Positions 20,553 through 60,381 of a DNA stretch of 64,000 nt are shown here, piece after piece. The DNA is from Lichenostomus cassidix (taxonomy: Eukaryota; Chordata; Aves; Passeriformes; Meliphagidae), in the NCBI GenBank assembly GCA_008360975.2, contig CM039195.1:15367010-15431009 (forward strand). The letters are read 5' to 3'. A program made the position numbers and the translations under genes. Every line of letters begins with the position of its first letter. Within the stretch, counting starts at the first letter, position 1. A model generated the notes under the pieces. That model did no database searches and was not told where the DNA came from. It saw only the letters and a list, made by a program, of their open reading frames with translations.

Positions 20553-20621
20553 GGAGAGGAGAGGAGAGGAGAGGAGAGGAGAGGAGAGGAGAGGAGAGGA
20601 GAGGAGAGGAGAGGAGAGGAT
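20553..20621. repeat. Purine pentanucleotide microsatellite (GGAGA)n
   Basis: About 13-14 near-perfect five-base units, all purine on the + strand, 1.2 kb upstream of exon a. It produces the artefactual Leu/Ser open frames on the opposite strand. Confidence 0.97.
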
Positions 20622-33900: not shown

Positions 33901-36900
33901 TCACCACCTCTGTGAGATGTGTCCCAGCCTCTTGATGGTGGACGGGCCCAAGCTGGTTGTGTCTAGCTTGAAGATCCTGCTCGGTGTAACCGTCAGAACA
34001 GGGATGTCCCAAGGACTTGGGAGATGTCTGAGTGCTGAGGTCTCGACCCCCTTGCCACCCTTGCTCTTTTGAGGTGCAGAGAATTCATCTCTGTGAGCTG
34101 AGGGGCAAGGAGCCAGCAGACACCCTTGGTAAGGCTGTACAGCACTTCCAGTGGGAGTTTGTTTGCTTTTACCTTTGCTAGGCTTTAACTGTTTGGGCTG
34201 GATTATTCCATGCTCTTCTGCCTCAGGCTGAACTTTCTCCTTTTTTTTTTCTCTATTTTTCCCAAGTTTCAGCAGAAGGTTGGGGAAAAATGGTAGCGTT
34301 GCCAATTTCTTTTTTTTTCCTCCTGTCTCTTTGTTTGAGGGCTTCTGGTGTCTCCACTCTCTGAAAAAGAGACTTGAAATTTGGCAGGGATGATGCATTC
34401 CTGCTGAAAATCAACATGGATTTGGTCAAATGGTTAGCCACTGGAAAGCGTGGCTGGGCATGCCTGGAGGAGCTTTTCAAGGGCCAGCTGCTGGTGTCCC
34501 CATTTGCAAAGGGACTCTGGCCACTCTGTGTCCTCCTGTCCCTTTCTCTAGGGACACCTCCTTGCCCACACGAGGCCAGGTCAGGAATGGTGGCTGAAGG
34601 AGCTGTTTCCCAATAACAAGCCTCAAAAGCAGTTTACCCAAGACAACATTGTCTCTGTCCCCATTTCGCATGTGTGGCACTGGCTGTGGGCATCACCTGC
34701 CTCTCACGCTCAGCAGAGAGACGAAGCAAAGCTCAGGCCAGCTTGGGCAGTGCCCTGTGAGGGGAGGAGAAGCTGAGGAAACATTCCTGTCATGTGAGAC
34801 CTGGGAAAGAGCATTTGTGGACCTGCCTATCCCATGGGTGAACTCAGCAGCATCACATACATGCATGGAGGGACAGAATCACATAATCATTACGGCTGGG
34901 AAAGACCTTCAAGGCCATCAGGTCTAGGTTGAGCAGGTCCTGGTAGTTGGATGTTTGACCTGGTGATCCCTATGGTTTTCAAAGTTGCTCTTTTATATAG
35001 AGTGGAAACTTTTTCTATTTGCTGTCCTGGGGGCTTTGGAAATTCCTCCACCAGCTCCATTATCCTCACCTGGAGCTTCTTCAGCTGATGGTATCTCAAA
35101 GCTTTCCGCAGAGGGAGAAATGACACGTGAGCTGGGAAAGCTCTGGTCTGATAAAGGAGCTGGCAAACCCCAGCTGGAAGGAGGCCTGGCTGGTGGTGAC
35201 TGTCCCCAGTTAGTGCAGTTACAGGAGTGCTCAGCACTTGTGGGGTGCTTTCTAGCAAAATGGTGGAAAAAATTGACTTCTCCACTTGGACTGCAGGCTT
35301 TGGACCCTGACTCCGTGGAGATGCTGTTGTAGTTCGGTGGCAGTGACGCAGCCCCTCTGGTGTTGCTCATGAGTTGGATGGTGCTGGCATGAGACCAGCT
35401 CCAGGACAATGTGGTGGGGTGGTCAGAGAAGACCCCAGTGCTGGACAGGGAGCTGGTCTGGAGCAAGCCAGGAGCAAATTCCAGCATGAAGCTGTGCCAG
35501 GCAAGGGGTTTGCCAGGCTGGGATATGCTGGTCCAGGGACATCCCAGTGGGGTTGCTGTTCTTGGTAGCCGTGCCAGGGACAGTCTGTGGGCAGTGGCCA
35601 GTGTGTCCAGCACTGCTGGCTGGCTCCTGCTGGGTGCCTTCCAGCGGGAAAGGGGTTTCTGACTCCAGTAACATTTACAGCTGGGCAGCAGCTCTGGAGC
35701 CGGGTGTGTGTGTTTGTCTGCTCTTCCATTGTGTCTTGGCTGTTGTCTCCTCCTCCCCGCCGAGATCAATGGCTGTGGGCTCCCTTTTGTAACCCCTTTG
35801 GGTGCAGTTCTGGAAGTCTTCAGCCTGATTTCCATCAGAGCTCTGGTCCCATCTGGCTGGATGGCTTGGGTGGGACAGTGGACTGGAGGTGGGTTTCCAC
35901 CAGAAGAAACGTCCCAGTGATGAACTGGAGGACTGGGAAGCACAGGTGGGATGTAGGTGGCTGAAGATGGATCCCAGCCATAGGCATGGGGGAGTGAACT
36001 CATGGGACCTTCGGAAGCCCTTCTTGGGCCATTTTTCTACCATTTGGTGGTTTTGGAGAAGAGGTTTCCGCTGGGAGCCAGATGCCGGTGGCACCTTCTT
36101 CCCTGTGGCACCAGGTGGCGCAGGAGGTTAAAGGATTTGGTTGTTCTCTGCAGGTCTGGGCGCACATCGATTGCCTGCCACTGCTGTGATGAGTCTGCAG
36201 GCCTCAGCCCCCAGCACACGTAGCCGTGTCCCCATGCCCGGTGAGCTGAAGCCCCAGGGCAAGGCAGTGACCATGGGGCTCCCTGGACCCTGTTTCCAGC
36301 AGAATCAGGAGCTGAGCCACCCTTTGGACCATAATGGGGGCTTGGGTGCGAACCCCCACCATGCCAGGAAAGTGCACAGTGATGCAGAGGAGCCACACTT
36401 GGGGGGAGAGCCCCGGTGGGTGTCAGGAGAGTGCGGAGACAGTGGAATGTGAACCTGGGATGAGGCCATGACAAAACACACAACATCCCTCTGCCACAAT
36501 CTCAAGCCATCTTGGGCACAGACAGGTGAGTGCTTCTTCCTGGCTCCTGGAAGGTCCCAGGCATTTCACTGGGATGCAGGTACATGGCAGCAGCCCTCAG
36601 AGCAGCAGGGATGCTGCCATCCCAGCCCCCAGGGCCCCTTCTCCTATTGGAACAGCCTCTAGCCCAATGGGCTCTGCCAGCGCTTCCCAAAAGTGTGTGT
36701 CAGAACCCAAGGAAGGGGACAGGACCAGGTTTGGGTGAGTGTGACCCAGTGATCCCTTCTCACTCCTCCCAGCATGGCAGCTGTGCCCTGGGCATCTCTG
36801 TGCTGAGTATCTGGTTGGATTCTACTCTGGTTGGATCCAAAGTGGGCCCCTGTGAACCCAGAGTGATATTTTTCTTCCTCCTTTTGCCTTCGGTGGTTTT

Positions 36901-42900: not shown

Positions 42901-45900
42901 TAATGTACATAGATGTTCGCTCCTGAGCACTGAATAATTTCCATCTCTTCTCATTAAAAGCAAATCAGAGGAAGAAAAACAGTGAGAAATTTCTCTGTGT
43001 CTCTGTTTCTGCCATCTCTGAATGAGCTTCCTTCCAGTTGTGCAGTCTGCCTGCACTGGGTCATTTGCCAGTTATTTTAATTGGCAGAAAAAAGGGCTTT
43101 TGCTCCAAAGCACCATTCCATTTTAAACCCTGATTCTGCAGGCATGGATGGATCTGTCACAGCAGGGTCTCATCCAGCTTCCATAGAGGGAAGAGCATTC
43201 CATCTGGGAGAACATTGTTGCCTCCTTGGAAGAAGGGGAGCCACACTGGAATTTGGCATCTTGTTGATGAGTCTGCTCAAAGAGCCACCTTCACCTCTGA
43301 GCAGCAGCTGGTGGTGGAGAGAGGAGGACTTGGGCAGCAGTGAACTCTTAAACATGAGAGAAAGGGCAAGGTTTTGCTGGAAAACCTCTTCTCTTTCCTA
43401 AATATGCCAGGCAGCGCTTTGCATCTCAGGCTTTGCCCACGGGTCAGGACCTGCCTTCCTGGCTGTGTCTTCCTGCCAGAATAGTTCTGTCTGCTCAGGC
43501 ACAGCTGGCTTTTCTCTTATCTCTGTGCACCCGTGACAGCAGAGCTATGCCAGTGTTCCACCACTGTGCTCTCTGGGATCCTGTACCTGCCCTCTGTAGA
43601 AGGTTGTGTGTGCTGTGTGTGTGCCCTTGGCATGAGGAGCCCTCTGGAGAGTTTGTGCCAGGAGTTGCTCCCTGTCCATGATGACACACAGTGTGCACAA
43701 GCTGAGGGCTCTGTGTCCAGGGCCAGGCAGGTCCTGGAGAACCCAGGCTGGTTTTCCAGCTTTTCCTTGCATTGTGCGGGTCTCTCCTTTGGTTGGTGTG
43801 GTTGGTGTTCAGATCCATGAAGCCCTGTGTGCAGATAATATCCATTCCTGGAGAAACCCAGGGCAGCAACTTGACACTGTGGTTTGGGCCACACTGGAGA
43901 CCTCTTAAATTCACAGGCTGGAGTTGGTAAGGTGAATGATTACCAGGAGCCAACCTTTGCAGCATTTTCCACTCTAAATATCACAGCAATAAAAGGTAAA
44001 ATCATTAAAGTCCTTCTGCAGCCCACTGTGCCTCATCTGAAAAGAGGACGACGAAGAGCCCAGAGCGAGATGGTTATTAATATCCTGTCTTCTGGTGGTG
44101 GCTTTATAAACATCCTCACTGCAGGCACAGCCTCGCTGGAGTGTTTTGGCATGACCTTCAGCCAAATGTCGTGCTTTCATCACACTTGATATTTAACCAA
44201 TAAAGCAATGTGGGGAAGACTTTGCCCCTAAATATCTGACCTTATACACAGGGGATTGAAGTCAAAACTGAGTAAAACTGTGTTAAGTGTAGTTGTGCTA
44301 AAAGCTCTTTAGATCTGATGCTCCTCTCTGGGACCTGTGCCAGGGCTCTGGCAAGAAGGGATCAAATGTCTGACGCAGTGGAAACCCTCTGTTCTGTAGG
44401 GGATGACTCATGGACAAAAGCCCCACACAGCAACGAGGCCACACTCACACCAAAGCTGGGGACTTTGCCTGGTGGGATGAGGTCTTGATGGAGACAGGAG
44501 GGTCCTGGCTGCAGGGAGAGGGACAGGGACAGCTGCCACTCTGGGGAGCCCCTGAAAAGACACCAGCTTTCATTGCGGCTTGTAGATACTGAAAGTAAGA
44601 ATTAAGATCATGTCCCAATGACAGGGCATTGGAACCAGATGATCTTCAAGGTCCCTTCCAATCCAAACTAGCCTGTGATTCTATAATCAGAGAGGAGAAA
44701 AGTTTTTTAGGTTAATGGATGGAGAAGTGGGGAGAAGCTGTGAAGCCTGGATCTCTTGGTGCGCAGGAGACTGGGGGCACTGGTCCCCATCAGGACCTGG
44801 CATTGTCTGGATGCCATTAGAAATGGCCTTTTATCTGGTCGCTGCTTCCACTTCACTTCCAGAGGGGGCCCTTTGCTGGAACAACAACCCTGAGAAAAGT
44901 CATGAATGAGAAAAGGTCTGAGGCATGGTGATAAATGCAGGACACAGGTTCCTGTGGAAGGTTGGGTGTGGAGAGGGCACTCAAGGCCTTCCCAAGCCAA
45001 CACGATGGACAGCACTCACCCAGCACAGGGCTGGGGGCTGCCAGGCCCTGCAGCCTCCACTGCTGAGGGTGTCTGAGCATCCCTGGATGGGGCAGCCTGT
45101 CTCTGTAGGAGCTGGATGGTGGAGACTGGGATGTGGAGAGAGTACCCTGGTGAGATGGATCTAGACCAGTTGTAGAGCTGAGCAGCCTGAGGTTGCTTTT
45201 GACATCCCAGCTTGGGACCAGAAGGAAATGTCTTACCTGCAGGGATCATACAAGCCTCTTGGCACCCCTGCAGGACCAGCAGCAGTGGTGAGGAGGAAGA
45301 ACAGCTATGCCTCAGCTGATAACAGATGGATAAAGGCATTTCTGGCTCTGGCATCCACCTTGCTGCTCACATCGGTGCTGCCCAGGGGTGCTGTGGTTCT
45401 CCCAGTTCCTGTCTTGGTCCTGACACTACAGATGTGCCTCTTCCTTTCTGGCACATCATTCATGCCTCATTTCCCTCCTGGCTTTTTCCCAGGTCATCCT
45501 CCCCAAAAATGACGCAGCAGATGCGGGACCTGCAGCTGGCACAGGCCAGGAAGCCACCGGGCCCTTCCTCGCCAAACGCGGCCAAGAGGCTCTACCGAAA
45601 CCTGTCAGGGAAATTCCGTGTCAACTACACCTCCTTTGATGAGGGCAGCCTTGTGGGACGGGGCGAGAAGGAGAAGCTCCGCAAATCCTACCTGGTCAGT
45701 TCCTGCTTGCTCCATCCAGATGGGGACAGAGGGTCCCTGGAGGCTGAGGGTCTGTGTGTGGGCGATGCTGGAACCTGGGTGGGAGTACAAGAGTGTATTA
45801 AGTGAAGCCAGAGCACGTTCAGCTGGAGCTGGTCCAGCTGTTTGCTCAGCATCCTTCAGACGTGCCTGCAAAGAGATGATGTTCCCAAGTCCCTGGGACC

Positions 45901-48900
45901 AGGGAATCCTCTCCCTGATTGGGTTCACGGGGTGCTGGTGAGGGGCCAAGGTGTTTGGTGGGATGGAGGAGGGTGCCCTGTGCTCAGTCCACCTGCTTTT
46001 CTCCTTTCACCCAGTTCCAGAGCAATGCTGCCCTCTTTGAGGCCGTGGAGCTGCAGGACCTTGACAGAGTGCAGGAGCTGCTGAAGCAGTATAGCCCTGA
46101 GGAACTGGACCTCAACACCCCCAACAGCGAGGGGCTCCTGCCCCTGGACATCGCCATCATGACCAACAATGCTCCTATTGCCAGGGCCCTGCTGCAGGCA
46201 GGAGCAAAGGAGAGCCCACACTGTGAGTTGGGACAGGCACCTGTGCTGTTCCCATCTCCTGGGTCTCCAGCCTGGTGGAATGGGGCACCACAGGCATTGG
46301 ATGTGGGTGGAGGAGGTGATCACTGGGCTGTGGGAGACTGGTGCAGGCTGCAGCAGGGCTCCAGGGGAGTCGTGCACTCAAGTGGAGCCCAGGACCAGGA
46401 CAAGGAGGGGAGGATGGGGTCTCAGGGTGGGGATTTGTTGCCAGCAGAGCCAGAGCTTGCCCTAACCATCTTCTCCTCCCTGCCCTCCTGGGCCCCACGG
46501 CCATGCCCACCCACCCCACAGTCGTGAGCCTGGAGAGCCGTTCACTGCACCTTTCCACGCTGGTGCGGGAAGCGGAGCAGCGCGTCAATGAGCTGATGGC
46601 GCAGGTGGTGAACGAGGCACCCAACACTGACTGCTCCGAGAAGGAGAAACAGCTCAAGGCCTGGGAGTGGCGATTCCGGCTGTACAAGCGCATGAAGGCA
46701 GGGTTTGAGCATGCCCGTGAGTGACTGCAGGAGGGCTGGGTCCTGGGGGGCTGTCCCTGCACCAGGGGAAGCAGCGGGGCTGGCTGGGATGGGGCACCAG
46801 CACCCATCAGAAGGTCTCTGCACCCTGTAGCCAGGGCTTGCAGTATGGGTGCATGGAGGGGAGAACATGTTCCCCACAGGGAATATATCCCTGGGACCAG
46901 GGAGAGGCCCAAGAAGGACACATGGGGGTTCGGAGTGACCATCCTCGCTGTAGCAGTCCCTGTGCTCTCTGTCCCCAGGAGTGCCAGATGCCCCCAGCAG
47001 TGTCCACCTCTCCGTGGCCAGCAGCTCCTCATTGCAGGTTACCTTCTGGGAGCCCCTGAGTGTCAACTCGGCCGTTGTCACCAAGTACAAAGGTAAGGAT
47101 CAGGATCCCTGCAGCAGAGCAGGGTCACACAGCCACAGTAAGTGCCTTGCATCCCTTGCACCCCATGTCAACACAACAGAGCCATGGGCAGTGCTGCCAA
47201 GCCCCAGCTAGGCCACTCTTGTGTGCTGGAGCACAGAAGAAGTGAGGGCTGCTGGACAGCCTGGCCACCACCCAAAAGCTCTGAGCTAGACCAAACATCC
47301 TGCACCAAGGCGAAACTTTGGCTGCCACTCTTTTGCTGCCCTCTCATCCTGCATACTGGGAAGACTCTGCAATCCTGCACCCCTCACCCACTTAAACCAG
47401 ATATTTTTGGCTTCTGGAAGAATTTCTTCCATCCCCCACTTCTGAGCTACCAATTAAAGGTGCTGACCCCATCTGATGGGGCTTGGTGAGGCCAGCAGCT
47501 CCCCCTGATATTACCCCCACTAGGAATCTTCCTTTTCCCTGCCTTCACTCTGCTGCCTCCAGCTCCTGTGCTACCTGCAGTCCCCTGCTGCTGTCTGTGA
47601 CATGCTGCCCCAGCACCGGTGGTGTGTCCCCACTCCAGGGCCACATGGCACCTTGGGGTATCTCTCCTTGCAGTGGAGTGGAGCTGCTCCCCCACCTTCT
47701 TGCCACCGCTGGGAGAAGCTGTGATTGACAAGCTGAAGGACCTGCACTTCACCATCCATGGGCTGGTGTCGGTGAGTGACGTGGGTGCCCACAGCAGGCA
47801 GGGCTGGGTGTGGAGAGCCCACAGCTGGGAAAACCACAGGCCACAGTGCAGCCCACAGGGGGAGGATCAGGCACTGGCCCAGGCTGCCCAGGGCAGTGCT
47901 GGAGTCATCATGCCTGGAAATGTTCAAAAGACATGTGCATTTGGCAGCTGGGGACATGGTTTAGTGGTGGCCTTGGCAGTGGTTGGACCCAGTGATCTTA
48001 GACACCTTTTCCAACCTTAATGATTCTTTCTTTCTATGATCATTCCAAGCAGGAACAATAGGATTGTGCCATGCTGCGTGCCGTGGGCATAGCCTGGGCA
48101 GACCCAAGAGCATGGGGCTGGGAGAGGCATCTGTCTGTCCCCGCACAGCCGCAGCCGCTAACAGTGGGGACTGACAGGGTGCCTGCAGACCCACAGTGAC
48201 AAGCAGAATGGGGCCACTCACCCAATGCGTGATTTATCCTCTGTCCCCCACCCCACTCCCATCTCCACCCAGGCTCTTCCTGGGCAATAAATCAGTGGCT
48301 CGTTCCTCTGCCACCTGCTGAGTCCAGCCCCTCACACTTCGGGGGCTCCATCCCACGGCAGCCCCGATGTCACTGAGAGAGGGGACAGCCCCATCTCCAT
48401 CTCCGGGAGCTCAGCAAGGTCATGGCTGGTGGGATTGTGGCTTCCTGCTGTTTTATCTCCCTGAGAACCACAACAGCCATGCTGCTTGTCAGCTGTAACC
48501 TGGGCCAGCGCTGGGGACATGGGGGCTGCGGTGGGATGGAGCTCAGGATTGGAACATAGGGAGATGCTGGAATAAATGGGGTCACCCTTGCCAGGGATAG
48601 GCAGGCAGGAACCACGGACTCGAGGAGCAGGGAACGCCCTTGGTGAGGTGAGAGGGTCTTAGGCACAGCAGCAGTGTCAAGCTCGAGTGCTGTCAGGGTG
48701 GGAGCCGCCCCTCAGTGCGGCGGGAGGGGCTCGAGCAGAGCCCGGAGCAGCATTGCTGCAAGGAGCTGCTCCAAGGCCATCAATCACACTCTCAGAGGTG
48801 CCTCACGGGCTCCTGTCACCTTCATGAGCGCCTGGAGGCCTGGCAACATCTGGCAGCTTGACTGGGCTTTAATCAGATGCTTTAATCACTGTCACTGTGC

Positions 48901-51900
48901 TTTTATAAACCCTTGATGGTGCTGGGCCAGCTCCCTATCTCCAGGGCCTGGATCCTTCCACATCCCAGGGGATTGACAGCACCCCAGCCTACAGAAGCAC
49001 TGAATCTTTGGGGCTGGAGCTTCTCTGGTGAGGGGCATTTGCAATGTCCGATCCTTCCTCTGTGTCCCCCAAACCCACCCACAAGGCCACAGGGGTTCTC
49101 TAGTGTCTGTTAACAAGGAGTGGGAGGTAAGAGCCAGTGACCTGGACTGTGGGCTCCCAATTCAGTGCTCCTCATGGTATACTGGTGCAGTGGGCTGGGG
49201 GAATCCCTGCCTCGCCTGCCAAGCCAGGAGAGGTGTGAGTGTGCTGAGTGTGCTGCTCTCCTCGCAGGGCACCACGTACTACGTCCGGGTGTCTGCCTAC
49301 AACATGAAGGGCTGGGGCCCCCCGCAAGCCTCTGCACCCCCCTTCGCCATCCCTTCCAGTGAGTATGCCTGGGAGCAGTCCCATGGGAGCCAGCACAGGG
49401 CAGGTGGGGGATGGCAGCTCCCTGTGCCATCCAGGGGTCCCTCTCACTGCTGGGATGGGAGCGAGTGGACCCAAGGGCAGAAGCAGAATTTGGGGTCTCA
49501 GACCAGGCAGGAAGGCTGTGCCTGGGGGTCTGGGATGCTGCCTCAAACCAACAGGTGCTTTTTCCAAACAGTGATTTTTCAGCCTTGAATTCTCCCTGCC
49601 ACCTGGGAAAGACTGAGCCATTTCAGGCCACCTGAATCAACTCATCCCAAGGAGGAAGCTAGGAGGTGGCTAAGAGCCAGGACTCAGAGAGTCCCAGTCC
49701 TGGGTGGCAGTGGCCTCCCACTCTGTGCCACCCCATGGTCTGCCACCCAGCCCAGAGCCAATGACCGGCATTCCCTGGCATTGAGCTGGGATGGGGGTCA
49801 CAAGCCCCGACAGAGACCAGCTCTAGGCTGTCAGCACTCTCCTTCCCATGCTGACCCCAGGAAAAGTGTCAGGGAACAGCCATCCAATGTCACATAAGGC
49901 ACCCCGAGGTGCTGGGTGGAGAGGGGCCAGGAGGACTGAGCTGGAAGGTGCAGGCCAAAAGGCAAAGTTCAGGGCAGAGAGGGCTCCAGAATAGCCTCTG
50001 CCACTTGGCACCAGTCCCCAAACAGGTCCCTGTGTGGTGCCCCATGGGATTAGGGCTCTGAATGAGTAAGGAGCAGCCCCATGGGAGGCTGAGCTTGTCC
50101 CAAGGATCAGGCCATGGACACACATCCCATACCATGATGCTGCTGGCATCCAGGGAGCAGGGATACTGCTCCTGGCAGCAGTGAAGGCACTGGAGACAGG
50201 TGGAGATGAACAGTGATGGGTCAGAGATGTGCAGCACCATGCATAGCTCGGGCTGCAGACCCATAGAGCATTGAAATCACCAAAAATCCATTTGCATGTC
50301 TAGGAATGCACATTGCAAGGGCACAGCACTGCCCTGCCCTGGCTTTATCATGTCCCTGTCAAGTCTGCACCCAATTTAAAGCCTATTTGTCACCTCACAT
50401 GGGTCACATTCCCTGTGACTGAGACTCAGGTAGCACCAAGTGTGGCTGAAGTGAATCAGACAGGAGTGGGGTTTATTTATTTTCATTGCCACAAATATTT
50501 CTCCCTTCAGTAGAGATCCCTCCCTGGCCCAGCAGAATACAGTCAGGCACCTCCCTGGGTGTTTTTAAAGCTACTAAAAATAGTGGCAAGTTCCAGCCAA
50601 AGTTAACAGAGCTGAACTTTCCATGGAAAACAGCAGTGGGCAGGACACAGGAGGTGTTTAAAGCAATTAATACAAAGTTGAGGGAGAAGAGCCGGCAGGT
50701 CCCAGGCCCCACTCACGGTCCTGCTGCCATCCCACAGTGGGTGGAGCTGGTGGGAGTTTATTTATGTGTTTGCCGAGGTGAGCCCAGCTCCCAGCGCTCA
50801 TCTGGAGTAACTGGGGAAGACCTGGAGGAAGACACTGGAAAGAATTTTATATGGCCAGTGAAGTGTAGCAGCAACAGACAGAATGTTGTTCCTTCCCTCT
50901 GCTGAGTCCCTGCCATGCTGTGGAGAGGCCAGTGGCTACAGGGTGCTCTGCAGAGCTGGGTGCTCCTGGGAAGAGTGACACAAAACTGGGAATCTCCTGA
51001 AGCCCAGAAGACCCAGAGGTGCTCAGCACCCACAAATGCTGCCACGCTGTAGCATGGGGGGGACACCCAGATGATGAGGGAGGAGGAGATGGGAACCCCT
51101 TTTCTCCCAAGCCAAGCGGTGCTGGGGGTGATGCTGGTCTGTCCCCCACAGACTGGCGGGAGTATGATGGCCGGGCCCCACGGCGGAGGGGACAGGCTGA
51201 AGCTCTGGACCATTTGCTGGGCCAGGTGAAGACCATCCACCAGCACTGCGTTTGCCACGGTGAGCCCACAGCACGCTGCTCCAGGGAGGCTGGGGTGGGG
51301 GTCCAGCTGAGTTCCCCAGGGTTGTGGTGTGATTCACGGAGCTGGGGTGGTGCCGGGAATAAATCTGTGCCATGGATGAGCAATGCAGGGAGACAGCTCA
51401 GGCAGCGGAGACCTCAGCAGAGCCTTCCCATTGGCTTGGCATCAGCTCTTCATCTCCTGCTGCAGCATCCCCTGCTCTCTGCTCCACAGAGCCCTGCAAG
51501 AACCAGCCTCAGAGCAGAAAGCACTCGGTCTCCAAGAGCCTCAAGCACCTCTTCCACCCCGGCAGCAAGTTTCTCAAGACACTGAAGCGGTGAGAGGCTG
51601 GTGCATGGGGTTGGCAAAGCTGCCCATCCCGAGAGCTCTGCCTGCAGACTGGGGGCTGGGGGTGCTCATAGCAGGGTCTGCACCTGCACCAAGCCGGTGG
51701 TGTCAGTGGAGATGAGTCCCATGGCCCAAAGGTCAAAGGTTCTCTTAGTGTCTCCATTTGGACTTGGCCAAACTGTGCTGGTGCCCAAATCCCTGCACCA
51801 CCTCTGAGTGTCACCTGGCACCCCACCTCATCCAGACCCAGCGTGTCCCCTGCACAGTCTGGCCCCATCTCTGTCCTGTGTGTAGGGGGTCATTGGCCAT

Positions 51901-54900
51901 GATATTTGCTTGCCAGGTTGGGTTCCTGTTCCTGCTCCCACACCAGACGCAAGCCTCTTCTGCCACAGCTGTTGGAGAGAAGTGGAGACCTGGGGCAGGG
52001 CAGGGCATCTTCCCTTAAGAGAAAGACCCTTTGGGAGATGGAGCTGGCATCTGGAGGTGACACTGAAATCTGTCTTCCCTCCCACACAGGGGCCTCTACC
52101 TGACAGCCATCTTCTACAAGGACGACAACATCCTGGTGACCCATGAAGACCAGATCCCCGTGGTGGAGATTGATGACACCTACTCCTGCCTGCTCATGCA
52201 GGATTTCCTCTGGTTCACCAAGGTGGGTGGCCCAGGGACCCTGTGCTGGGGCAGAGAGCCAGGGTGCCAGAGTGGCCCAGGCATGACCGCTGCCCCTCCA
52301 GCCTGGACACTGGGGCTTGGCAGTGCAGGCAGCCCATGGACTTGCTGCTTGCTGGGGTTCAGTATGGACCAGGAAACTTCCAGGGAATGGCATTTCATCC
52401 CAGCTCCTGGAAGCCCAAAGATGGTGACATGCTGGTGCCAGGATGGGTAGGCACTGCCTCTCCATAGGCATGTCAGTAGCTGTTGAGCTGCTTCCCCTCA
52501 GCATCCTGCTGCAGCACCTCTGCCTCTGTTGTAAGATGCAAAGCAAGCTGCTGCCAGCTCCTCCACTGTTAGCAGACTTAGGGAGAGGGCATGTGGGCAG
52601 CTCAGGGCCAAAATAGTTTGCTGGGTAGTCTTTACCTACTGATGGAGAGTGCTTTCTTCTCCCTCCCCACCTTGGCTAACTTTTATTCAAACCTGAAGTT
52701 CCAGTCCAAGCTGAAGGTGGATGTCTGAGTGGGCATGGCACAGTGCTGCCCTCAGGTACAGGCCCTGGAGGCATCACAGGGTGCCTGTGGCACAGGGTTT
52801 ATTTGCACCCCTGCTGAGAGACGCTGAGAGAATGTGCCTAGGCACATTCCTAACCCAGCTCAAATGGAGATGCAAATGGATTTCCCCAAAAACCACCTGG
52901 TGTGACCCAGCTGCAGCAGTGGTGACACCCTTTGGTGTGCACAGGTGTCGTGCATGTGGGATGAGATCCTGTGGCTGCGGCAGTGTGTCACCGTGTCCCA
53001 GTCCTCCTGCTCCTGCATCCTGCAGACACGCTTCAAGATGCTGCTGGCCATCTCACAGATGCAGGTGAGGGTCAGCCTGAGTGGGGAACAGGCACTTTGG
53101 GTGGGACACTGGGGGCTGGGCTCCCTTGGGAGCAGCACATGGCTGTGCCACAGACAGGAAAAATCCAGGATCTGCCAGCCATGGTCCATGGCAGGTGTGT
53201 GTGTCCCTGCCTCATCCTCCCTGGCAGGACTCTGGCTGTGGGACAATGAGGTGCCAGGTGTCACGGCAGTCTCATGCAGAGGGGCTGGGAGCCATCAGGG
53301 TGCTTTGATGGGCAGACCAGTTTCCAGCAGGCAGCTGCAGGCACATCCCAGCTTCCCAGACCCACTGTCCCTCCAGGATGTCCCCCGATCCTCTGTTTTC
53401 TCCTTCTGTCCCACCCCATCACACAGGGGCTGTTGGGCATCCAGGACCTGGGGCAAGTCTTCTTCGAGCCTGTCAAAGACAAACAGGGCAACATCCTCAT
53501 CGTCACCTTGAAGGAGGTGAAGACCAACCAGACCTTCGAGAGCGTCCGCTGGGTTCCCATCTGCAAGCTACAGACCAGTCGCAAGTCCGTGTCCACCCCG
53601 GAGGAGCCCACTGCTCTGGACACGCTGCTCATCTCAGTCCAGGTGTGTGTTGATGCTGCTGGGGCAGGGATTGCAATGGGGTCCCCTGGGACCACCAGTG
53701 CTCCCTGCTCCCCCTCAGCCTGGAAAAGGTCACAGCAGAGCCTGGGCCACCAGGGGTTTGGTCCTGGCTGCAGGCAGAGGGGGAGCAGAGCCCAGCCAGT
53801 GTCCAAAAATACAGTTCTTTCAAGGGGAGGCATCAGGTTGGTGCCAGATTCACCCTGGCAGCATATGGTTGTCTTGCTGTGCCACTCCCCTTCTCCAGCT
53901 GGGCTGGCTGTGCCATGGCATTGGAATGAGCCGTGCTGTGAGGACTTGCTCAGCCCAGCAGTGCCTTTGTCCCCAGGACAAGATGGCTTACCACCAGCGG
54001 AGCAGCTATGCCCTCTCCCCAGGCCTCTACCTGGGCTACTTGAAGCTGTGCAGCGCCGTGGATCAGATCCGAGTGCTGGTGCCAGAGCGGCTCCCCAACA
54101 TCCTGTGCCACGTCAAGATTCGCTCCAATCCCAACATCTCCAGGTGGGATTTGCAGGGCTGCTCAGCCAGAGCAGCCAGGCTGCTCTGTCCCATCCAGCC
54201 TAACAGCACCCATTGCCTCCTGCTTCGGCAACAGGGTAATATTCCCTCATATACCTGCCATGCAACATGCTCAGGCACAGGGTGGGATTGTTGGGGTGTC
54301 CTGTGTGGGGTCAGGAGTTGAACTCAACAGTCCTTGCGGGTCCCATCCAGCTCAGGATATTCTGTGATACTGATTCAGCCTGGAGCAAACCAAGTTCTCT
54401 CTCTACCCGCACCTCTCCCACATCCCTGGGGGTGCTGCACTGTCTGGGAGAGGAACAGCCAAGCAAACACAGCTCTCATAGCAACTGTGTCGAGGTCCAC
54501 CTGAGCTGCTCTCTCCTTCACCTGTCTGTCTCTGGCCTTCTTCAGGGAGGAGTGGGCATGGCTACAGAAGATGGCCAGCGTGGAGGAGTCTGTTCCCACG
54601 GAGCCAGAGGCTGACACATCCCAGAACCCCTTGTTTCAGGAGCTCCAAGTGGCCATCAAGGAGCTGATGACCCTGGTGAACATCCCATTGCAAGAGGTAG
54701 AAGGCAGGAGCCAAGGTGTGGGGTGGAGGGAGGGGACAGAGCTGTGAGCATGGTGCTGGTGGCTGAAGCAGGCAGGGAACTGCAGCCCCAGGCCTTCCTC
54801 TTGGGGCTGGAGCACCCAGGAGATTTTGGTCCTGTGCAAACAGAAGGTGAGTGCTGGATCTGCCTGCCCAGGGACAGTGTCCACAGGAGCTGTTTGCCCT

Positions 54901-57900
54901 TCTCTCACTGTATCCCCAAAGCAAGGACAGTGAATCTGGGTTTGTTACTGCTGCCATGTGGTTTGGTGCTGGGCAGCATGAGACCAGTGCAACTCCGCCC
55001 CTCCAAAGCAGGCTGGTCCCTGGCCAGAGCTGGGCTGGAGCTGCAGTCTGTGGTCAAGTATTTACTGGGAAGGAGCCCACCAGTGCTAGGCATGTGCTTC
55101 TGGTCGGGCAGCTGGGAGTGCACCTCCCTGCACATCACTGCGCCATTCTCTGAGACCCTGCCGTGGTGACTTTGACCAGAAGTTTGGAGACTTTTAGGGG
55201 AGAAATTAGAGAAGTGACAAGACTATACAGATAAGCCAGAAGCAAGGAGCCTCTGGCTGTGTGCTGAAGCTGCAGTGTCCCTTGACTGCAGGTGGTCCCT
55301 GAGGATTACTCTGTGCATGAGGACTGGGCAGAGGGCCCACCAGGTGATGTTAGGAGCTGTTACCTGCACTGTCTTCTTGCAGGCCAAAGATTTCCGTCTG
55401 TACAGCCAAGAGGTGCTGGACTTTGGGGATCAGGTCTCCTTCCTGCTGCTGCTGCCTCCATCAGATGATGTCTGCACTGCTCCAGGCCAGAACAACCCCT
55501 ATACCCCTCGCTCCGGCTTCCTCATGCTGCCACTGCAGATCTTCGAGCTCGGTGAGGAGATGGAATGCCAACACACAGCCCTGCTGGTCCCCTTGTCCCC
55601 TGAGGCCTCCTGAGAGCTGGGCTGGGCAGTGGCGTGGGCTGGAGTTCCCTGGAGAAGAGGGATGGAGGGGTGTGCTGAGGGCTGTCCAGGTGGACTCATG
55701 GACAGTGTTGTCTCCTCTTTGTGCTGGGAGATAGGAAGGAGCCTGTAGGGCATCCACAGCAAGAGACCTGATGTTTTTCATCCCCCCTCTCATTTCCTCT
55801 TCCCAGTCCACTTCTTCACATATGACCGGGAGTTCATCACCCAGTACTGCCAGGTGTCTGCCTTGCTGGAGCTGGAGTCACTTCTCTCCCAGCAGAGCCT
55901 TAGGGAGGCTTTCTCCGATGTCGAGCTCTCCACTGCCAAGCAGAGGCACCAGCAGGTTCAGGACTACATCCAGGTATGGGGTGGGACCCAGGCTCGACAG
56001 TGCCCCTGACCTGCCAGGACAGTCAGGCAGCAGCATCTGCACCAGGGCTGTTCCGTCGTCTTTGTGGCCCCAGGGGCTTTCTCTGATGTGGCTGATGAGC
56101 AGCAGCAGGCTGGGCTTTCATAGATTCATGGAATGGTTTGGGTTGGAACAGACATTAAAACTCATCCAGTTCCACTTTCCACCAGACCAGGTTGCTCCAA
56201 GCCCTGTCCAGCCTGGCCTTGGACACTTCCAGGGATAGGGCAGCCACAGCTTCTCTGGAATACCTATGCCAGGGCCTCCCTACCCTCACAGGGAAGAACT
56301 TTTTCCCAATATCGCATCTAACCTTGCTCTCTGGCAGTGGAAAGCCATTTCCTTCTTGTCCTATCCCTCCAGGCCTTTGTCCCAAGTCTCTCTTCAACTC
56401 TCTTGGAGCCCCATTAGGCACTGGAAGGGGCTCTAAGGTCTCTCTGGAGCCTCCTCTTCTACGCGTTGCAGTTGCTTTATCTAGCAACATTTTACTGCAG
56501 TGATGAAATTAAAAATCCTGGAGAGAGAGACAAAGAGTTGTGCCCTGCACATCCCCTCCTTGCTAGAAAAGGGCCTGCAAGTGCCTTTTGGGGATGGCCT
56601 TACAAAAGAGCATCCCACACTATCCCTGTCCCCAGCACCACTGCCTGCAGCAGGCAGGTCTTGCTGAACCAGCAGCTGCACCCTCCTCCCACCTAAGAGC
56701 ATTTTCTTGTTATTTCCCGGCTCAGGGATTCCCCCCCCAGAGCTCTTGGAGAGATGTGTGTACAGAGCCCGTGTTTTGCCGTGGGGCTTTCTTGTTGCTG
56801 TCGTTTGCTGTCTGAAACGGCTCCTCTATTTTCCTCCGTTGGGCAGCAAATGGAGGAGATCTGGCGAGAGATGCGCTGGATCATGGATGCCCTGCAGCAC
56901 GCCCGCTACAAGCAGCCCTCCTGTGGGGTCTCACTCAGCGGCTTCCTCAGCGAAGCCGGGGGGCCAATGAAGGAGAAAACCCGATCCTCCTCGTCCCACC
57001 TTGACTACCTTCCGTCCCCGGTGCCCTCGCCAGAGACCAGCCGCAAGCTCAACTCCGGTAAGGACCCGGCTGTGTCAAGCTCCTACCCGGCGGGCTCAGG
57101 GGCTGCCCGTGCTCGGTCCGTCAAGGGTGGCCGCACCCGAGGTGCCGGCAGGGCTGGAGCCGGGAGTGCGGGCAGGGTTGGAGCAGGGAGTGCGGGCAGG
57201 TCTGTCGGGCTCAGCCAGGGCTCAGCCACTCTGCCTGTGCCGTGGCAAGCGCAGCACAGCTGCGTGACAAGAGGGTAAACCTCAGAGGCTTCCTTGGATT
57301 CCACCTCAGCCGGGGCTGTCCACATCCAGGCTGAGTCCCTCTTTGCTCCTCTCACCCTCGCAGACTCACACGGGCTGTCGGATGAGGAAGGCTCCTCCGA
57401 AGTGTTCCTGGCCACCGACAGCGACTACGACTCCAGCCGGGCGCAGAGCCCGAAGGAGCTCGACCTGGTGTACTCATCGGGGCCTGAGTGCTGCAGCCGC
57501 AGGGCCACCCGCACCCTGCTTGACAGTGCCCCGGATGTCCTGCAGAGCCACGAGCTCAAGACCCCACCCCCACTGCCGCCACCGCCGGAGGAGCCCCGGC
57601 CACCTCCCGAGCTCTACGACAGCGACTTTGTCCTGCCCAGCCGGCAGATTGAGCTGCTGCGCATCACGGAGAAGCGACAGGCCTACTGCGTCCGGACCAG
57701 CAGCCTGGACTTCCCCAAGCCCCACTGCCCCGCCCCAAGGAAGTCCTGCCCCGGCTCTGTGGACAGCTCCCCGACGGAGGGCAGGACCGCGAACCACTGC
57801 AGCCAGCTCAGGCTGGGGACTGGCTCGACGCCCAGCCCCGAGCGCCGCCGGGGCGGGCAAGGCTCTGAGCCCGTCTGCCGGACGCGATCCGATGAGTGGA

Positions 57901-60381
57901 CTCAGCACTTGCCAGAGCAGCAGCCAGAACAGCCCGAGGACTTGGCCGACCAAGGGAAGAAGCTGGTCTCTGTCACCTTGCGGGTCTGCCCTCAGTATGA
58001 AACGGGACTCTCCAAAGAGACCAGTGTCAAGGTACCGCAGCCTGCAGCGGGTGGCGGAGCGTCTCTGCTGTGCCCAGTGGGACAGGGCTTGGCAGGATGA
58101 GGACATAGGCAGCAGGGCTTGTGTGCCCCACTCTTGGCACTGCCCTTCCCGTCCTCCACTGTCCCGGGGATGAGGTTCTCTGGAGACCTGCAGTACTCCT
58201 GCCCTGAATCCCTCTGTCCCTGCTGTAGTGATGAGGCTCCTGGCAGTACAGGATGTCTCCACAGGAGTGATGGCCACTGCTGCAGAAGGAGCAAGTCAGG
58301 GCCACACATAGCAGGTTTTGGGGACAAGGCGGTGGGGCAGAAGTTCAGCTCTTGGTGTGTGCTTCAGCAGGTGACAGCAGCTTGGTGCCACCCAGTGTGG
58401 GCAGGCAGAGCAAAGGACACATTGGTGGGTTTCCCTTGTTATGTCCTGGTGTTCAAACACGTCATCCTCCCTGGCCAAAATTCAGCTGTCACCTCCTGCC
58501 CTGGCTATGTTCCTCCTACAGCCTCCCCTTCCCAGGTCTGTGCTCCCTGCTCCAGCCTTCCCCATTAGGGAAGGGAGAGCAGGAGCCTTTTGTCTCCAGC
58601 CAGTGGCAATTCCAGTGGCAGAACCCACTCCAGTTCCAGCTGGGGGAGCAGGCAGAGCACCTTCTGTGCTGCAGGCAATTGGGCTCTGCTGGAGCAGCTG
58701 TGTGACCTGACTCCTCTCCGTGAGGGCTTTGCTGCCAAGAGCTGACCCCCACAGCTCTGGTCACTCACACCTGCTGCACGTGGGATCCCCCACGGAGAAC
58801 ATCCCCCAGCACACACATCTTGGGCAGGTCCCCCTCTAGCTTTGTGGCCTCCTTTAGTCCCAGCCACGGAGATCCTTCCCCTGTAGAAATTTCCCTTTCA
58901 AGACGTTCCTCGTGCCCAAGACTGAGGATGATAGAGTAGAAAATCATTAAATCGTGAACTGATTGGGGTTGAAAGTGACCCTAAAGGAATGACAGAGTAA
59001 GAACAGAGTCAACAGGTTGATGGGTTTATTGCTGAGGAAGTTTGATGGCCGGTGTCTCTGCACCCAGCAGGGACATCCTAGCAGAGAAGACTCTGCCTTG
59101 CAGGGTTATTTTCCATTTGAGGAATGCCCATAGATTTCTGTGGAACTGAAGCGCAGCCCTCGGGTTCTTGGCAGGCTGCCTGTAGGGCTTTTGAAGTTGC
59201 AACGTTCTGGACATGCCTGCTTGAAAGTGTTTTATAATGTTCTCCTTAAAGAAAGGCAAGTTCAAAGGCACAGCTCCTCGGCTGGTGTAAATCAGCTGAG
59301 CCCTGCCATGGCTGTTCAGAGCTGGCAGCGCTCGCATGGGCCCAGGGCTGGGACCATCCTGCCAGGGCAGTGCTCCCGGCGCTCCGCAAGCCCTTACAGA
59401 TGTGCCAAAGGAAACGTCGCCTTGCCCTGGTGAGGATGGATGTCCTGCCTTCAGGCCTTTGAAGCCAAGCAGCAACTCCCAGTATTGGATCAGCAGCCAG
59501 GGCCCTGATGAGCTCATTTTCTCGACAGGATTTGGGATTCAGAGGGCTGTCCCCAGGCAAGCAGAGGGTGAAGGTAGCTGTAGGTGAGAAAACCCCAAGC
59601 TTGTGAATGGGATGAAATTTAGCGCTGTGTCCCAAAGAGGCTTCAGTTCTAGTTTGGCAGAGCTGTTGGGGTCCAGCTGGTTTGAGGGTCTGGACCCTGC
59701 TCACAAGAAGGACTACACACAGATTCCTCCATGGTACCAGGAAAAGGGCAGGGACTGTCCCTCTCTGGCTACAGGTGATGGGATGGTGGGGCAGCCTTAG
59801 CAGAGCTGTAGGTGACATGTGCAAGAGTTGAGTGGCAAGGGCATGGAGAGACTAGTGGAGGCAGGAGAGCCATCGGTGGGTTTGGGCCCTGGCACACTGG
59901 GGTACACTCCCTGGGCATTCCCTAGGCACAGTGTGCCCATGGCTCTGTGCCAGGCTGTTGCCACCTGCTCACAGGCGCCACTGGGGTGGCTGTTCCTCCA
60001 CCCTCACTGCTCCTCCACGCTGCATGCTGCCTGCGGCCCCTGTTCCTCCTCACTCCCCCTTAACATCCTTCTCTCCCACCTCTCTCTCTGCAGCTGCATA
60101 TCACCAGCCAGACGCCCGCCAGGGAGGTGGTGAAGTTGGTGGTGCTGGAGATGAACGACATCTCGCGGGATGTGCTGGGTGGCTCGGCCGCCATCTGCTA
60201 CAGTGAGGAGCAGCTGGAGCACTTCGGACTGGTGTTCGCCGCCAACGATAGCGAGCGGTGGCTCCCCGATGACTTCCTGCCTCTGTCCCTCCACACCAAC
60301 TGGCCTGAGGGGCAGTTCTACATCCGCATCAAGGAGACGTCCCCTCTGGTGCTCCAGTATGGGCCAGCGACCACCGTATGA
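21808..60381 (+). CDS. ANKFN1-like: ANKFN1-family scaffold protein, RA-domain-containing (ancestral-type) paralogue; 19 exons, 5' incomplete
   Basis: Seen: nineteen exons (each listed separately) chain without a frame break, with GT/AG introns and matching phases, giving 1,177 residues to a TGA at 60379-60381. Order: basic segment (1-43), ankyrin repeats (111-180), helical linker (181-245), FN3 domain (246-346), family-specific core (347 to about 830), Ser/Pro-rich region with a proline run (927-941), RA domain (about 1057-1172), and a C-terminal T-T-V. Known: ANKFN1 homologues are mouse Nmf9 (vestibular, fear-learning and circadian phenotypes) and fly wide awake (sleep and locomotion); they look like intracellular scaffolds with no catalytic site. 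Inferred: this is the RA-retaining ancestral paralogue, since mammalian ANKFN1 lacks that region. No signal peptide or membrane segment is visible. The first exon opens in mid-codon, so the 5' end is missing. Family membership is near certain; the paralogue assignment is likely. Confidence 0.95.
22049..22143. repeat. Pyrimidine pentanucleotide microsatellite (CCTTC)n
   Basis: About 18-19 near-perfect five-base units, all pyrimidine on the + strand, starting 113 bases after the end of exon a. It accounts for the artefactual FPSLPFPSLP-type open frame crossing it. Confidence 0.97.
28916..29192 (-). mobile_element. CR1 LINE 3' fragment
   Basis: GGTTTGGGTTGGAAGAGACC, then CAACCCCCTGCCATGGGCAA and ATTTCTTTCCAATATCTAGC, in CR1 order. 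Confidence 0.9.
30523..31000 (-). mobile_element. CR1 LINE fragment, long
   Basis: CCCCTGCCATGGGCAGGGAC, CAGCCACAGCTTCTCTGAGC, GGCACTGGAAAGGGCTTTAG and GACCTCCTCTGGAAACTCTC follow CR1 order for about 480 bases. Confidence 0.9.
31406..31431. repeat. Short tandem repeat of GGTACCTGT
   Basis: Three consecutive copies of GGTACCTGT/GGTACCTGG; each unit holds a KpnI-type GGTACC palindrome. Confidence 0.85.
31561..31622 (+). mobile_element. CR1 LINE extreme 3' end, sense orientation
   Basis: GATGATCTTTCAAGTCCTTT then CCAACCCAAACCATTCCAGG and a final TGATTCTATGA tail: the diagnostic CR1 terminus. Confidence 0.8.
33238..33309 (+). mobile_element. CR1 LINE extreme 3' end, diverged
   Basis: GTGATCTTTGTGCTTCCCTT followed by CCAGCTCTGGATACTCCAGG and ATTCTATAATTC resembles the CR1 terminus. 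Confidence 0.6.
34873..34930 (-). mobile_element. CR1 LINE extreme 3' end
   Basis: AGAATCACATAATCATTACG then GGGAAAGACCTTCAAGGCCA on the + strand: a short reverse-oriented CR1 terminus. Confidence 0.7.
37550..37697. repeat. Degenerate minisatellite, roughly 17-18 base unit
   Basis: The unit GGGGACAGGGGTTTGCA recurs imperfectly about eight times (for example AGACAGGGGTTTGCAG, AGTACAGGGGTTTGCAG, GGACAGGGATTTGCAG, GGAGACAGGCATTTAGAG). The opposite-strand open frame with repeated C-K-P-L and A-N-P-C is an artefact of it. Confidence 0.9.
38027..38044. repeat. Perfect 18-base palindrome
   Basis: CTGCAATTCGAATTGCAG equals its own reverse complement over all 18 bases, in otherwise unique sequence about 400 bases before the CpG-dense patch. 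Confidence 0.95.
38445..38635. promoter_or_regulatory. CpG-dense patch in intron 1, candidate internal promoter or enhancer
   Basis: I count roughly 20 CpG dinucleotides in about 190 bases (including GCCGCGGCCGGACCCGGCGG), far above the surrounding sequence. CCATATTTAG near 38609 is one base from a CArG box. A transcript starting here on the + strand could splice to exon b and initiate at Met-49. No transcription evidence is available. Confidence 0.4.
41311..41540 (-). mobile_element. CR1 LINE 3' fragment
   Basis: ATAGGATCATAAAATCATGG, ACATTGGAAGGGACCTTAAG and CAGCCACAGCTTCTCTGGGC occur in CR1 order. Confidence 0.9.
41958..42420 (-). mobile_element. CR1 LINE fragment, second subfamily
   Basis: ATCATAGAATCACTAAGGTT, AGATCATCAAGTCCAACAAT, CACTGCCAAGGCCACCACTA and later GCTGAGCACCCCCAGCTCCC: a CR1 subfamily differing from its neighbour at 41311. 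Confidence 0.9.
44622..44686 (+). mobile_element. CR1 LINE extreme 3' end
   Basis: CCAGATGATCTTCAAGGTCC then CTTCCAATCCAAACTAGCCT and GTGATTCTATAA, the sense CR1 terminus, about 800 bases before exon b. Confidence 0.85.
45493..45694 (+). CDS. ANKFN1-like: ANKFN1-like coding exon b: pre-ankyrin region
   Basis: The acceptor TTTTTCCCAG ends at 45492 and the donor GTCAGT starts at 45695. It encodes residues 44-110 and ends in phase 0. The conserved-looking stretch runs from MTQQMRDLQLAQ to FRVNYTSFDEGSLVGRGEKE. Met-49 (ATG at 45509-45511, A at -3) is the first methionine of the downstream exon cluster and would serve as the start if transcription began inside intron 1. The open frame upstream of the acceptor is chance. 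Confidence 0.93.
46015..46222 (+). CDS. ANKFN1-like: ANKFN1-like coding exon c: ankyrin repeats
   Basis: The acceptor CACCCAG ends at 46014 and the donor GTGAGT starts at 46223. It encodes residues 111-180. Two ankyrin-type helix pairs are readable: ALFEAVELQDLDRVQELL (116-133) and then EGLLPLDIAIMTNNAPIARA (149-168) with LLQAGAKE following. The second has the family signature G-x-x-P-L-D-I-A. Ankyrin repeats are protein-binding modules. The exon ends with one base of the Phe-180 codon. Confidence 0.96.
46522..46716 (+). CDS. ANKFN1-like: ANKFN1-like coding exon d: helical linker between ankyrin and FN3 domains
   Basis: The acceptor CCCCACAG ends at 46521 and the donor GTGAGT starts at 46717. 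It encodes residues 181-244 plus shared codons at each end. The stretch from LSTLVREAEQRVNELMAQVV to KAWEWRFRLYKRMKAGFEHA is strongly helical and charged, probably a coiled or packed helix after the ankyrin repeats. Confidence 0.95.
46979..47092 (+). CDS. ANKFN1-like: ANKFN1-like coding exon e: FN3 domain, first part
   Basis: The acceptor TGTCCCCAG ends at 46978 and the donor GTAAGG starts at 47093. It encodes residues 246-282. It opens with V-P-D-A-P (246-250), the classic FN3 start, and carries the core tryptophan W268 in LQVTFWEP. It ends in TKYK before V283, completed by the next exon. Confidence 0.96.
47674..47771 (+). CDS. ANKFN1-like: ANKFN1-like coding exon f: FN3 domain, middle part
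   Basis: The acceptor CTCCTTGCAG ends at 47673 and the donor GTGAGT starts at 47772. It encodes residues 284-315, joining to give Y-K-V-E-W-S, the usual FN3 strand C. HFTIHGLVS ends at the turn before strand F. Confidence 0.95.
47772..49267 (+). other. ANKFN1-like: Intron 6 of the ANKFN1-like gene
   Basis: 1,496 bases splitting the FN3 domain. It holds a CR1 3' end (47866-48041, + orientation), a small CpG-rich spot (about 48695-48760) and, next to it, a unique block at 48770-48915 with CCATCAATCAC and TTTAATCA repeats that looks more constrained than its surroundings. Confidence 0.7.
47866..48041 (+). mobile_element. CR1 LINE 3' fragment in intron 6
   Basis: GGCTGCCCAGGGCAGTGCTG, GTGGTGGCCTTGGCAGTGGT and CCTTTTCCAACCTTAATGAT occur in order, ending in TTTCTATGATC. 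Confidence 0.9.
49268..49358 (+). CDS. ANKFN1-like: ANKFN1-like coding exon g: FN3 domain, last part
   Basis: The acceptor CTCCTCGCAG ends at 49267 and the donor GTGAGT starts at 49359. It encodes residues 316-345. GTTYYVRVSAYNMKGWGPP (316-334) matches the FN3 signature G-T-x-Y-x-V-R-V-x-A-x-N-x-x-G. The domain closes with P-P-F-A-I-P-S. Confidence 0.96.
49359..51151 (+). other. ANKFN1-like: Intron 7 of the ANKFN1-like gene
   Basis: 1,793 bases between the FN3 domain and the family core. I see no repeat family, exon or motif cluster in it. Confidence 0.7.
51152..51259 (+). CDS. ANKFN1-like: ANKFN1-like coding exon h: start of family-specific core
   Basis: The acceptor GTCCCCCACAG ends at 51151 and the donor GTGAGC starts at 51260. 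It encodes residues 347-381, including W-R-E-Y-D-G-R and HLLGQVKTIHQHCVCH. It begins the long ANKFN1-specific region, for which I recognise no general domain family. Confidence 0.94.
51490..51589 (+). CDS. ANKFN1-like: ANKFN1-like coding exon i: basic Ser/Lys-rich segment
   Basis: The acceptor CTCCACAG ends at 51489 and the donor GTGAGA starts at 51590. It encodes residues 383-414, a strongly basic stretch (SRKHSVSKSLKHLFHPG, 390-406, then KFLKTLK). It could bind acidic membrane lipid or a 14-3-3-type partner at S394/S396; that is inference from composition only. Confidence 0.93.
52090..52222 (+). CDS. ANKFN1-like: ANKFN1-like coding exon j: conserved core
   Basis: The acceptor CCCACACAG ends at 52089 and the donor GTGGGT starts at 52223. 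It encodes residues 416-459. The stretch from GLYLTAIFYKDDNILVTHED to LMQDFLWFTK is part of the core block that characterises the family. Phase 2 in, phase 0 out. Confidence 0.95.
52945..53064 (+). CDS. ANKFN1-like: ANKFN1-like coding exon k: conserved core
   Basis: The acceptor GTGTGCACAG ends at 52944 and the donor GTGAGG starts at 53065. It encodes residues 460-499 (exactly 40 codons), from VSCMWDEILWLRQ to TRFKMLLAISQMQ. Three cysteines lie close together near its middle (residues 476-484 or so). No known fold is assigned. Confidence 0.94.
53427..53642 (+). CDS. ANKFN1-like: ANKFN1-like coding exon l: conserved core, beta-rich
   Basis: The acceptor CATCACACAG ends at 53426 and the donor GTGTGT starts at 53643. 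It encodes residues 500-571 (72 codons, both ends phase 0). DLGQVFFEPVKDKQGNILIV begins a beta-rich segment, followed by a Ser/Pro linker RKSVSTPEEP. Symmetric phases mean it could be skipped without a frameshift. Confidence 0.95.
53977..54143 (+). CDS. ANKFN1-like: ANKFN1-like coding exon m: conserved core
   Basis: The acceptor TGTCCCCAG ends at 53976 and the donor GTGGGA starts at 54144. It encodes residues 572-626. LSPGLYLGYLKLCSAVDQIR and the following VLVPERLPNILCHVKIRSN are the most family-diagnostic strings in the window. It ends with two bases of Arg-627. Confidence 0.96.
54268..54370 (+). mobile_element. CR1 LINE 3' end in intron 13
   Basis: GGAGTTGAACTCAACAGTCC then GGGTCCCATCCAGCTCAGGA and TATTCTGTGAT match the terminus of a CR1 subfamily. 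Confidence 0.75.
54546..54696 (+). CDS. ANKFN1-like: ANKFN1-like coding exon n: helical segment
   Basis: The acceptor GCCTTCTTCAG ends at 54545 and the donor GTAGAA starts at 54697. It encodes residues 628-677: EEWAWLQKMASVEES, an acidic linker, then the amphipathic helix LFQELQVAIKELMTLVNIPL, a possible coiled coil. Confidence 0.94.
55383..55551 (+). CDS. ANKFN1-like: ANKFN1-like coding exon o: conserved core
   Basis: The acceptor TCTTCTTGCAG ends at 55382 and the donor GTGAGG starts at 55552. It encodes residues 678-733, from AKDFRLYSQEVLDFGDQVSF to GFLMLPLQIFEL. The run of leucines (FLLLLPPS) is too short for a membrane segment and is more likely a buried strand. Confidence 0.94.
55807..55973 (+). 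CDS. ANKFN1-like: ANKFN1-like coding exon p: conserved core, helical end
   Basis: The acceptor CTCTTCCCAG ends at 55806 and the donor GTATGG starts at 55974. It encodes residues 735-789. HFFTYDREFITQYCQVSALL is followed by a long charged helix ending in KQRHQQVQDYIQ that continues into the next exon. Confidence 0.94.
56119..56461 (-). mobile_element. CR1 LINE 3' fragment in intron 16
   Basis: CATAGATTCATGGAATGGTT, TTGGGTTGGAACAGACATTA, GGGCAGCCACAGCTTCTCTG and GGCACTGGAAGGGGCTCTAA in CR1 order. Confidence 0.9.
56847..57057 (+). CDS. ANKFN1-like: ANKFN1-like coding exon q: end of core and start of Ser/Pro-rich tail
   Basis: The acceptor TTGGGCAG ends at 56846 and the donor GTAAGG starts at 57058. 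It encodes residues 790-859. The helix QMEEIWREMRWIMDALQHAR is followed by a Ser/Pro-rich stretch with SPVPSPETS, which offers proline-directed kinase sites (SP at three places). Confidence 0.94.
57148..57198. repeat. Duplicated 24-base unit in intron 17
   Basis: GGCAGGGCTGGAGCCGGGAG is followed directly by a near-identical GGCAGGGTTGGAGCAGGGAG (each ending TGCGG), and a third partial unit begins GGCAGGTCTG. It makes the intron look like coding in one frame; the splice sites around it show it is intron. Confidence 0.75.
57364..58031 (+). CDS. ANKFN1-like: ANKFN1-like coding exon r: large disordered exon with proline run and start of RA domain
   Basis: The acceptor ACCCTCGCAG ends at 57363 and the donor GTACCG starts at 58032. 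It encodes residues 861-1082 (222 codons). Seen in order: acidic Ser/Asp segment (864-884), proline run PPPLPPPPEEPRPPP (927-941), the conserved motif YDSDFVLPSRQIELLRITEK (944-963) followed by RQAYCVRTSSLDFPKP, a low-complexity Ser/Pro/Gly region, and from about 1057 the first two strands of the RA domain (KKLVSVTLRV, then SVK). Read-through past the donor would add 22 residues and stop at 58098-58100, removing most of the RA domain. Confidence 0.95.
58032..60093 (+). other. ANKFN1-like: Intron 18 of the ANKFN1-like gene, inside the RA domain
   Basis: 2,062 bases between RA strand 2 and the rest of the domain. It holds a possible degenerate CR1 scrap (58940-58990) and a 163-codon antisense open frame (59026-59517) judged non-coding. 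A pyrimidine-rich tract precedes the acceptor. Confidence 0.8.
58940..58990 (-). mobile_element. Possible degenerate CR1 terminus in intron 18
   Basis: AAATCATTAAATCGTGAACT then GATTGGGGTTGAAAGTGACC is faintly like the reverse CR1 terminus. Weak. Confidence 0.3.
60094..60381 (+). CDS. ANKFN1-like: ANKFN1-like last coding exon s: bulk of RA domain and C-terminal PDZ-type ligand
   Basis: The acceptor CTCTCTCTGCAG ends at 60093 and TGA is at 60379-60381. It encodes residues 1083-1177. LHITSQTPAREVVKLVVLEM is the RA strand 2 and helix 1; EHFGLVFAANDSERWLPDD and then QFYIRIKE match the RA pattern of a late strand, an acidic turn and a closing strand. The last residues, A-T-T-V, fit the class I PDZ-ligand form S/T-x-hydrophobic. 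RA identification is by pattern and by eye. Confidence 0.95.
   Translation: MHITSQTPAREVVKLVVLEMNDISRDVLGGSAAICYSEEQLEHFGLVFAANDSERWLPDDFLPLSLHTNWPEGQFYIRIKETSPLVLQYGPATTV

Follow-up and report, generated by a model that had tools for sequence, protein, structure and literature searches.

Does a passerine genome still carry the ancestral paralogue of ANKFN1, the one with a Ras-association (RA) domain, and what would that domain contribute to the protein? This question is raised by a 64,000-nucleotide stretch of Lichenostomus cassidix (Meliphagidae; assembly GCA_008360975.2, contig CM039195.1, positions 15,367,010 to 15,431,009; hereafter the window), which holds an ANKFN1-family gene on its plus strand at 45493-60381. 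A preliminary description, made from the letters of the window, had claimed that the last two coding exons of this gene encode an RA domain and that the gene is the ancestral paralogue lost in most mammals. The RA match, the RA-less second copy in the same genome, the noggin neighbours and the published criteria all point to the ancestral paralogue; orthology of the window copy is supported by architecture, neighbours and these criteria.

The published Nmf9/Ankfn1 work to which the preliminary description appealed was rendered correctly. Jawed vertebrates basal to mammals have been described as having two copies, of which the ancestral one carries RA and the derived one does not (PMC4488434, Zhang 2015). 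The ancestral copy is stated to be lost in the therian lineage and retained by monotremes (PMC9210315, Ross 2021). The same paper reports both copies in all non-therian vertebrate lineages and aligns 49 species that have both, without mentioning birds by name in the main text. The gene in the window is therefore best regarded as an expected instance of the published ancestral/derived pair, which is already known; the novelty is low because this arrangement has been published for non-therian vertebrates, and the preliminary description had rated it too high (PMC9210315). Among the matches listed for ankfn1 together with chicken, no function of an avian RA copy appeared in the titles or opening parts of abstracts.

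The gene was modelled as 18 coding exons with AG/GT at the junctions, which form a single open frame of 1134 residues. The exons lie on the plus strand, as do all window features given here, at 45493-45694, 46015-46222, 46522-46716, 46979-47092, 47674-47771 and 49268-49358 (exons 1-6), 51152-51259, 51490-51589, 52090-52222, 52945-53064, 53427-53642 and 53977-54143 (exons 7-12), and 54546-54696, 55383-55551, 55807-55973, 56847-57057, 57364-58031 and 60094-60381 (exons 13-18). Both the ankyrin and the fibronectin type III (FN3) motifs of the ANKFN1 group were found in the whole protein by Pfam. The FN3 domain (fn3, residues 205-294; exons 4-6, 46979..49358) scored 42.5 bits, over its cut-off of 25, with an expectation value (E) of 8e-11, and the ankyrin-repeat region in exon 2 (Ank_2, residues 70-132; 46015..46222) scored 20.6 bits (E=6.8e-4), under its cut-off of 27.3. 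The 35 distinct PDB sequences matched by the whole protein at E<=0.01 cover its FN3 or ankyrin parts. The conserved core contains an exact GLYLGYLK peptide (54022..54045), which is reported to be highly constrained throughout the family (PMC9210315). The N-terminus of the model is uncertain: a candidate upstream coding exon at 36189..36415, proposed from its open frame and phase alone, has a start codon and a donor phase that suits the exon at 45493, and with it the protein would be 1210 residues long. Residue numbering is uncertain for this reason, and the position of about 1057-1172 given earlier for the C-terminal domain fits neither model exactly (KKLVS stands at residue 1015 of the 1134-residue model).

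The statement that the last two coding exons encode this C-terminal domain was confirmed, since exons 57364-58031 and 60094-60381 splice in frame. Exon 17 encodes the C-terminal region shared with the derived copy, a proline-rich linker and the first part of the RA-like domain, i.e., strand 1, a loop and the start of strand 2 (57957..58031, weakly covered by the Pfam match). It ends at 58031 with a donor GT at 58032. Exon 18, preceded by an acceptor AG, encodes the remainder of the domain, the C-terminal tail and the stop (TGA at 60379-60381), and the joined exons read KKLVSVTLRVCPQYETGLSKETSVK/LHITSQTPAREVVKLVVLEM...FGLVFAANDSERWLPDDF...QFYIRIKE...ATTV and stop. The Pfam RA profile (PF00788) matched the 121-residue tail piece with E=0.0013 and 19.7 bits. 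RA was the sole family listed for this piece at E<=10, a scan in which most matches above 0.1 are hidden by HMMER filters. None of nine controls (eight shuffles and the reversed piece) matched RA; one shuffled piece matched MORN_2 with E=0.24. When the tail was aligned by MAFFT with RA pieces from the same genome (eight taken of 17 matches and one dropped, leaving seven), its first half aligned, the xLRV strand and the start of the AREVV helix lining up by eye. The SAPDVLQ peptide of exon 17 (57525..57545) lies close to where homology with the derived copy gives out towards the C-terminus, and an RA match, weak by profile, was found beyond it; DVLQ has been given as this limit (PMC9210315). 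The profile match by itself would not settle RA identity. We take the tail as an RA domain because the match is specific and sits at the place that published descriptions of the family assign to RA; it is RA-like by profile and RA by its position in the family.

Six-frame searches of the window's own assembly, which in its size (1.10 Gb) and its CR1-like repeats fits a bird, revealed a second ANKFN1 copy. With the whole protein as query (41 of 63 candidates scored), at least 31 matches at E<=1e-3 were obtained, all of them on the contig of the window (C17) or on contig C20, and the exon 18 region of the query was matched on C17 alone. A 398-residue core query gave 16 matches at E<=10, eight on each of these two contigs (15 of 15 candidates scored). 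Neither search yielded a third ANKFN1 copy, the whole-protein search with 41 of its 63 candidates scored, and none was found on contig C2. The C20 copy lies on the minus strand at 4231334-4173051. In tblastn, 16 of the 18 exons were recovered at E<=1e-4 with 32.7 to 78.7% identity over query residues 5-882 (three more rows, at E>0.5, were treated as noise), and the counterpart of exon 5 was found by pattern and judged by eye, giving 17 of 18 collinear exons. Homology between the two copies ends just past SAPDVLQ, after which the counterpart of exon 17 stays open on to VFSSTL and a stop; we assume that this is the real protein end, without further splicing. No convincing RA exon was detected within the 100 kb that hold the C20 copy and 40 kb past its stop. 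The best match of the RA query there had E=0.060 (about 43 residues at 31% identity, on the plus strand and antisense to the C20 gene), the best match of a longer tail query had E=0.54, and both are read as chance; in the window, the exons from which the same queries derive were recovered with E of 1.3e-12 or better. A separate RA-less copy, which the preliminary description had asked for, is present in the same genome. The noggin beside it is in keeping with the derived ANKFN1, which has been placed on the noggin1 side (PMC7483449).

Both copies are followed by a noggin gene. The noggin profile (PF05806) had three matches in the genome. On C20, a 223-residue noggin lies on the minus strand at 4146695-4147894 (PF05806 match 4146695-4147333), and its open frame starts 25,157 bases past the stop of the derived copy, downstream on the same strand. 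On C17, the match at 15477633-15478238 (plus strand) follows the stop of the RA copy after 50,243 bases, again downstream on the same strand, and is 54% identical to the C20 noggin over residues 27-223. By similarity rank, we take the C20 gene as noggin1 and the C17 gene as noggin2-like. These labels also draw on the arrangement described for X. tropicalis, with ANKFN beside noggin1 and ANKFN1L beside noggin2 (PMC7483449), so that the noggin and ANKFN1 labels lean on each other. In birds, ankfn1 has been placed near noggin4 (PMC10869764); no such proximity was observed in this genome, unless that paper's noggin4 corresponds to the C17 noggin. The third match, at C2:49198168-49198671, is more divergent (106.5 bits).

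Several results weigh against a GTPase-binding RA domain that matters to the protein. The RA score lies under the gathering cut-off of 21 bits, so the Pfam check gave a specific match that fell short of its formal threshold, and the best stretch (residues 68-105; profile positions 47-90 of 93) belongs to the C-terminal half alone. RA was not among the eight families found in the full-length 1134-residue scan at E<=1. A sequence search of the PDB with the tail gave no solved RA structure, the three weak matches at E<=1 all being designed repeat proteins, and AlphaFold2 on exon 18 alone as a single sequence was uninformative, with a predicted local distance difference test (pLDDT) value of 37. 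Among zebrafish in which both ancestral alleles were mutant but one or both derived alleles were wild-type, 0/110 were affected, and the functions scored in that study therefore do not require RA (PMC9210315). The tail could accordingly be RA-shaped and no longer bind a GTPase, serving as a protein-protein module or as a spacer ahead of a PDZ ligand. The missing first half of the profile match, with strands 1-2, and the C-terminal ATTV would suit this proposal. Judged by the contacts of RalGDS, the basic residues of strand 2 and helix 1 also seem to be out of their usual places in alignments of the tail. Not every RA domain is known to bind a GTP-loaded Ras-family protein. On the other hand, RA is reported as strongly conserved among the ancestral homologues of the 49 species (PMC9210315), and we consider a non-binding tail possible but rather doubtful. 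It is very improbable that the tail formed by these two exons arose as a chance open frame and is no protein domain at all: the low Pfam score and the absence of RA from the full-protein scan would agree with this, but the splice sites, the reading phase and the stop all agree, the controls were free of RA, and the pattern is located where the family has been published to carry the domain (PMC9210315).

How the derived copy came to be without RA has been worded in two ways. It is described as "incompletely duplicated" in PMC9210315, which would mean that the second copy never included RA, and the lack of a convincing RA remnant around the C20 copy would be expected in that case. RA is worded as lost during or soon after duplication in PMC4488434, and the noggin genes speak against the former wording: each copy has kept a noggin beyond the point of the RA exon, so the duplicated block seems to extend past this exon and probably included the RA region. 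This argument comes from one genome, in which later rearrangement is possible. Because noggin lies downstream of both copies, the arrangement favours duplication of the whole block with later loss of RA, and a partial duplication appears unlikely.

Both copies end in short tails that resemble class-I PDZ ligands: ATTV at 60367..60378 in the window gene and SSTL in the C20 frame ending at 4173051. Two such short tails can match by chance. The fly homologue Banderuola is reported to interact with Discs large (PMC4488434, PMC9210315), and given this interaction the tails may be followed as a weak lead. The word 'PDZ' is absent from the main texts of PMC4488434, PMC9210315, PMC9076693 and PMC10567910, and no literature was found joining wide awake, PDZ, Drosophila and ankyrin. 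A bolder proposal, which we hold to be improbable, is that both ANKFN1 copies stem from a genome duplication, each having travelled with a noggin of its own, that the RA copy is a Ras/Rap-gated scaffold whose PDZ ligand binds MAGUK proteins, and that the derived copy kept the PDZ ligand and lost the gate.

Elsewhere in the window, two perfect five-base tandem arrays were seen (AGGAG x13.8 at 20552-20620 and CCCTT x18.8 at 22050-22143), and no Rfam family matched at its gathering score.

Compared by published description, nothing sets the window copy apart from the ancestral Ankfn1-like of zebrafish (chromosome 24) or the ANKFN1L of X. tropicalis, which likewise carry ankyrin repeats, FN3, the GLYLGYLK core and a C-terminal RA (PMC9210315); ANKFN1L adjoins noggin2, and the window copy likewise has a noggin neighbour (PMC7483449). 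Drosophila wide awake/Banderuola (CG45058), compared in the same way, is a single-copy homologue with RA (PMC4488434, PMC9210315). The derived ANKFN1 (Nmf9, mWAKE) of mouse and human is represented here by the C20 copy, which, unlike the window copy, has no convincing RA exon and ends in an unrelated C-terminal frame.

With a probability of about 0.9, we read the window gene as an intact ancestral ANKFN1-like scaffold whose core most likely shares the job of the derived copy and whose RA domain would put its attachment to the membrane under the control of an active Ras-family GTPase. The scaffold would consist of ankyrin repeats, one FN3 domain, the GLYLGYLK core and, from the last two exons, a C-terminal RA-type domain with a putative ubiquitin-like fold. 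The core most likely performs the job common to both copies; in zebrafish the paralogues are described as redundant, with 54/56 double mutants affected (PMC9210315). The RA-less derived copy sufficed in those crosses, and RA would add recruitment or regulation: an active Ras-family GTPase may bind the domain and thereby bring the scaffold to the membrane or release it. In this way, we infer, the window copy may link ankyrin/FN3 scaffolding to Ras-family GTPases in a bird, as the preliminary description had proposed. The derived copy would have lost RA when its counterpart of exon 17 became the last exon.

The pair neatly exemplifies the published history of a conserved neuronal scaffold that was duplicated: one duplicate lost its small-GTPase-binding domain, and therian mammals kept that duplicate alone. 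Since this bird genome retains both copies, an animal of this kind would lend itself to testing what the RA domain does.

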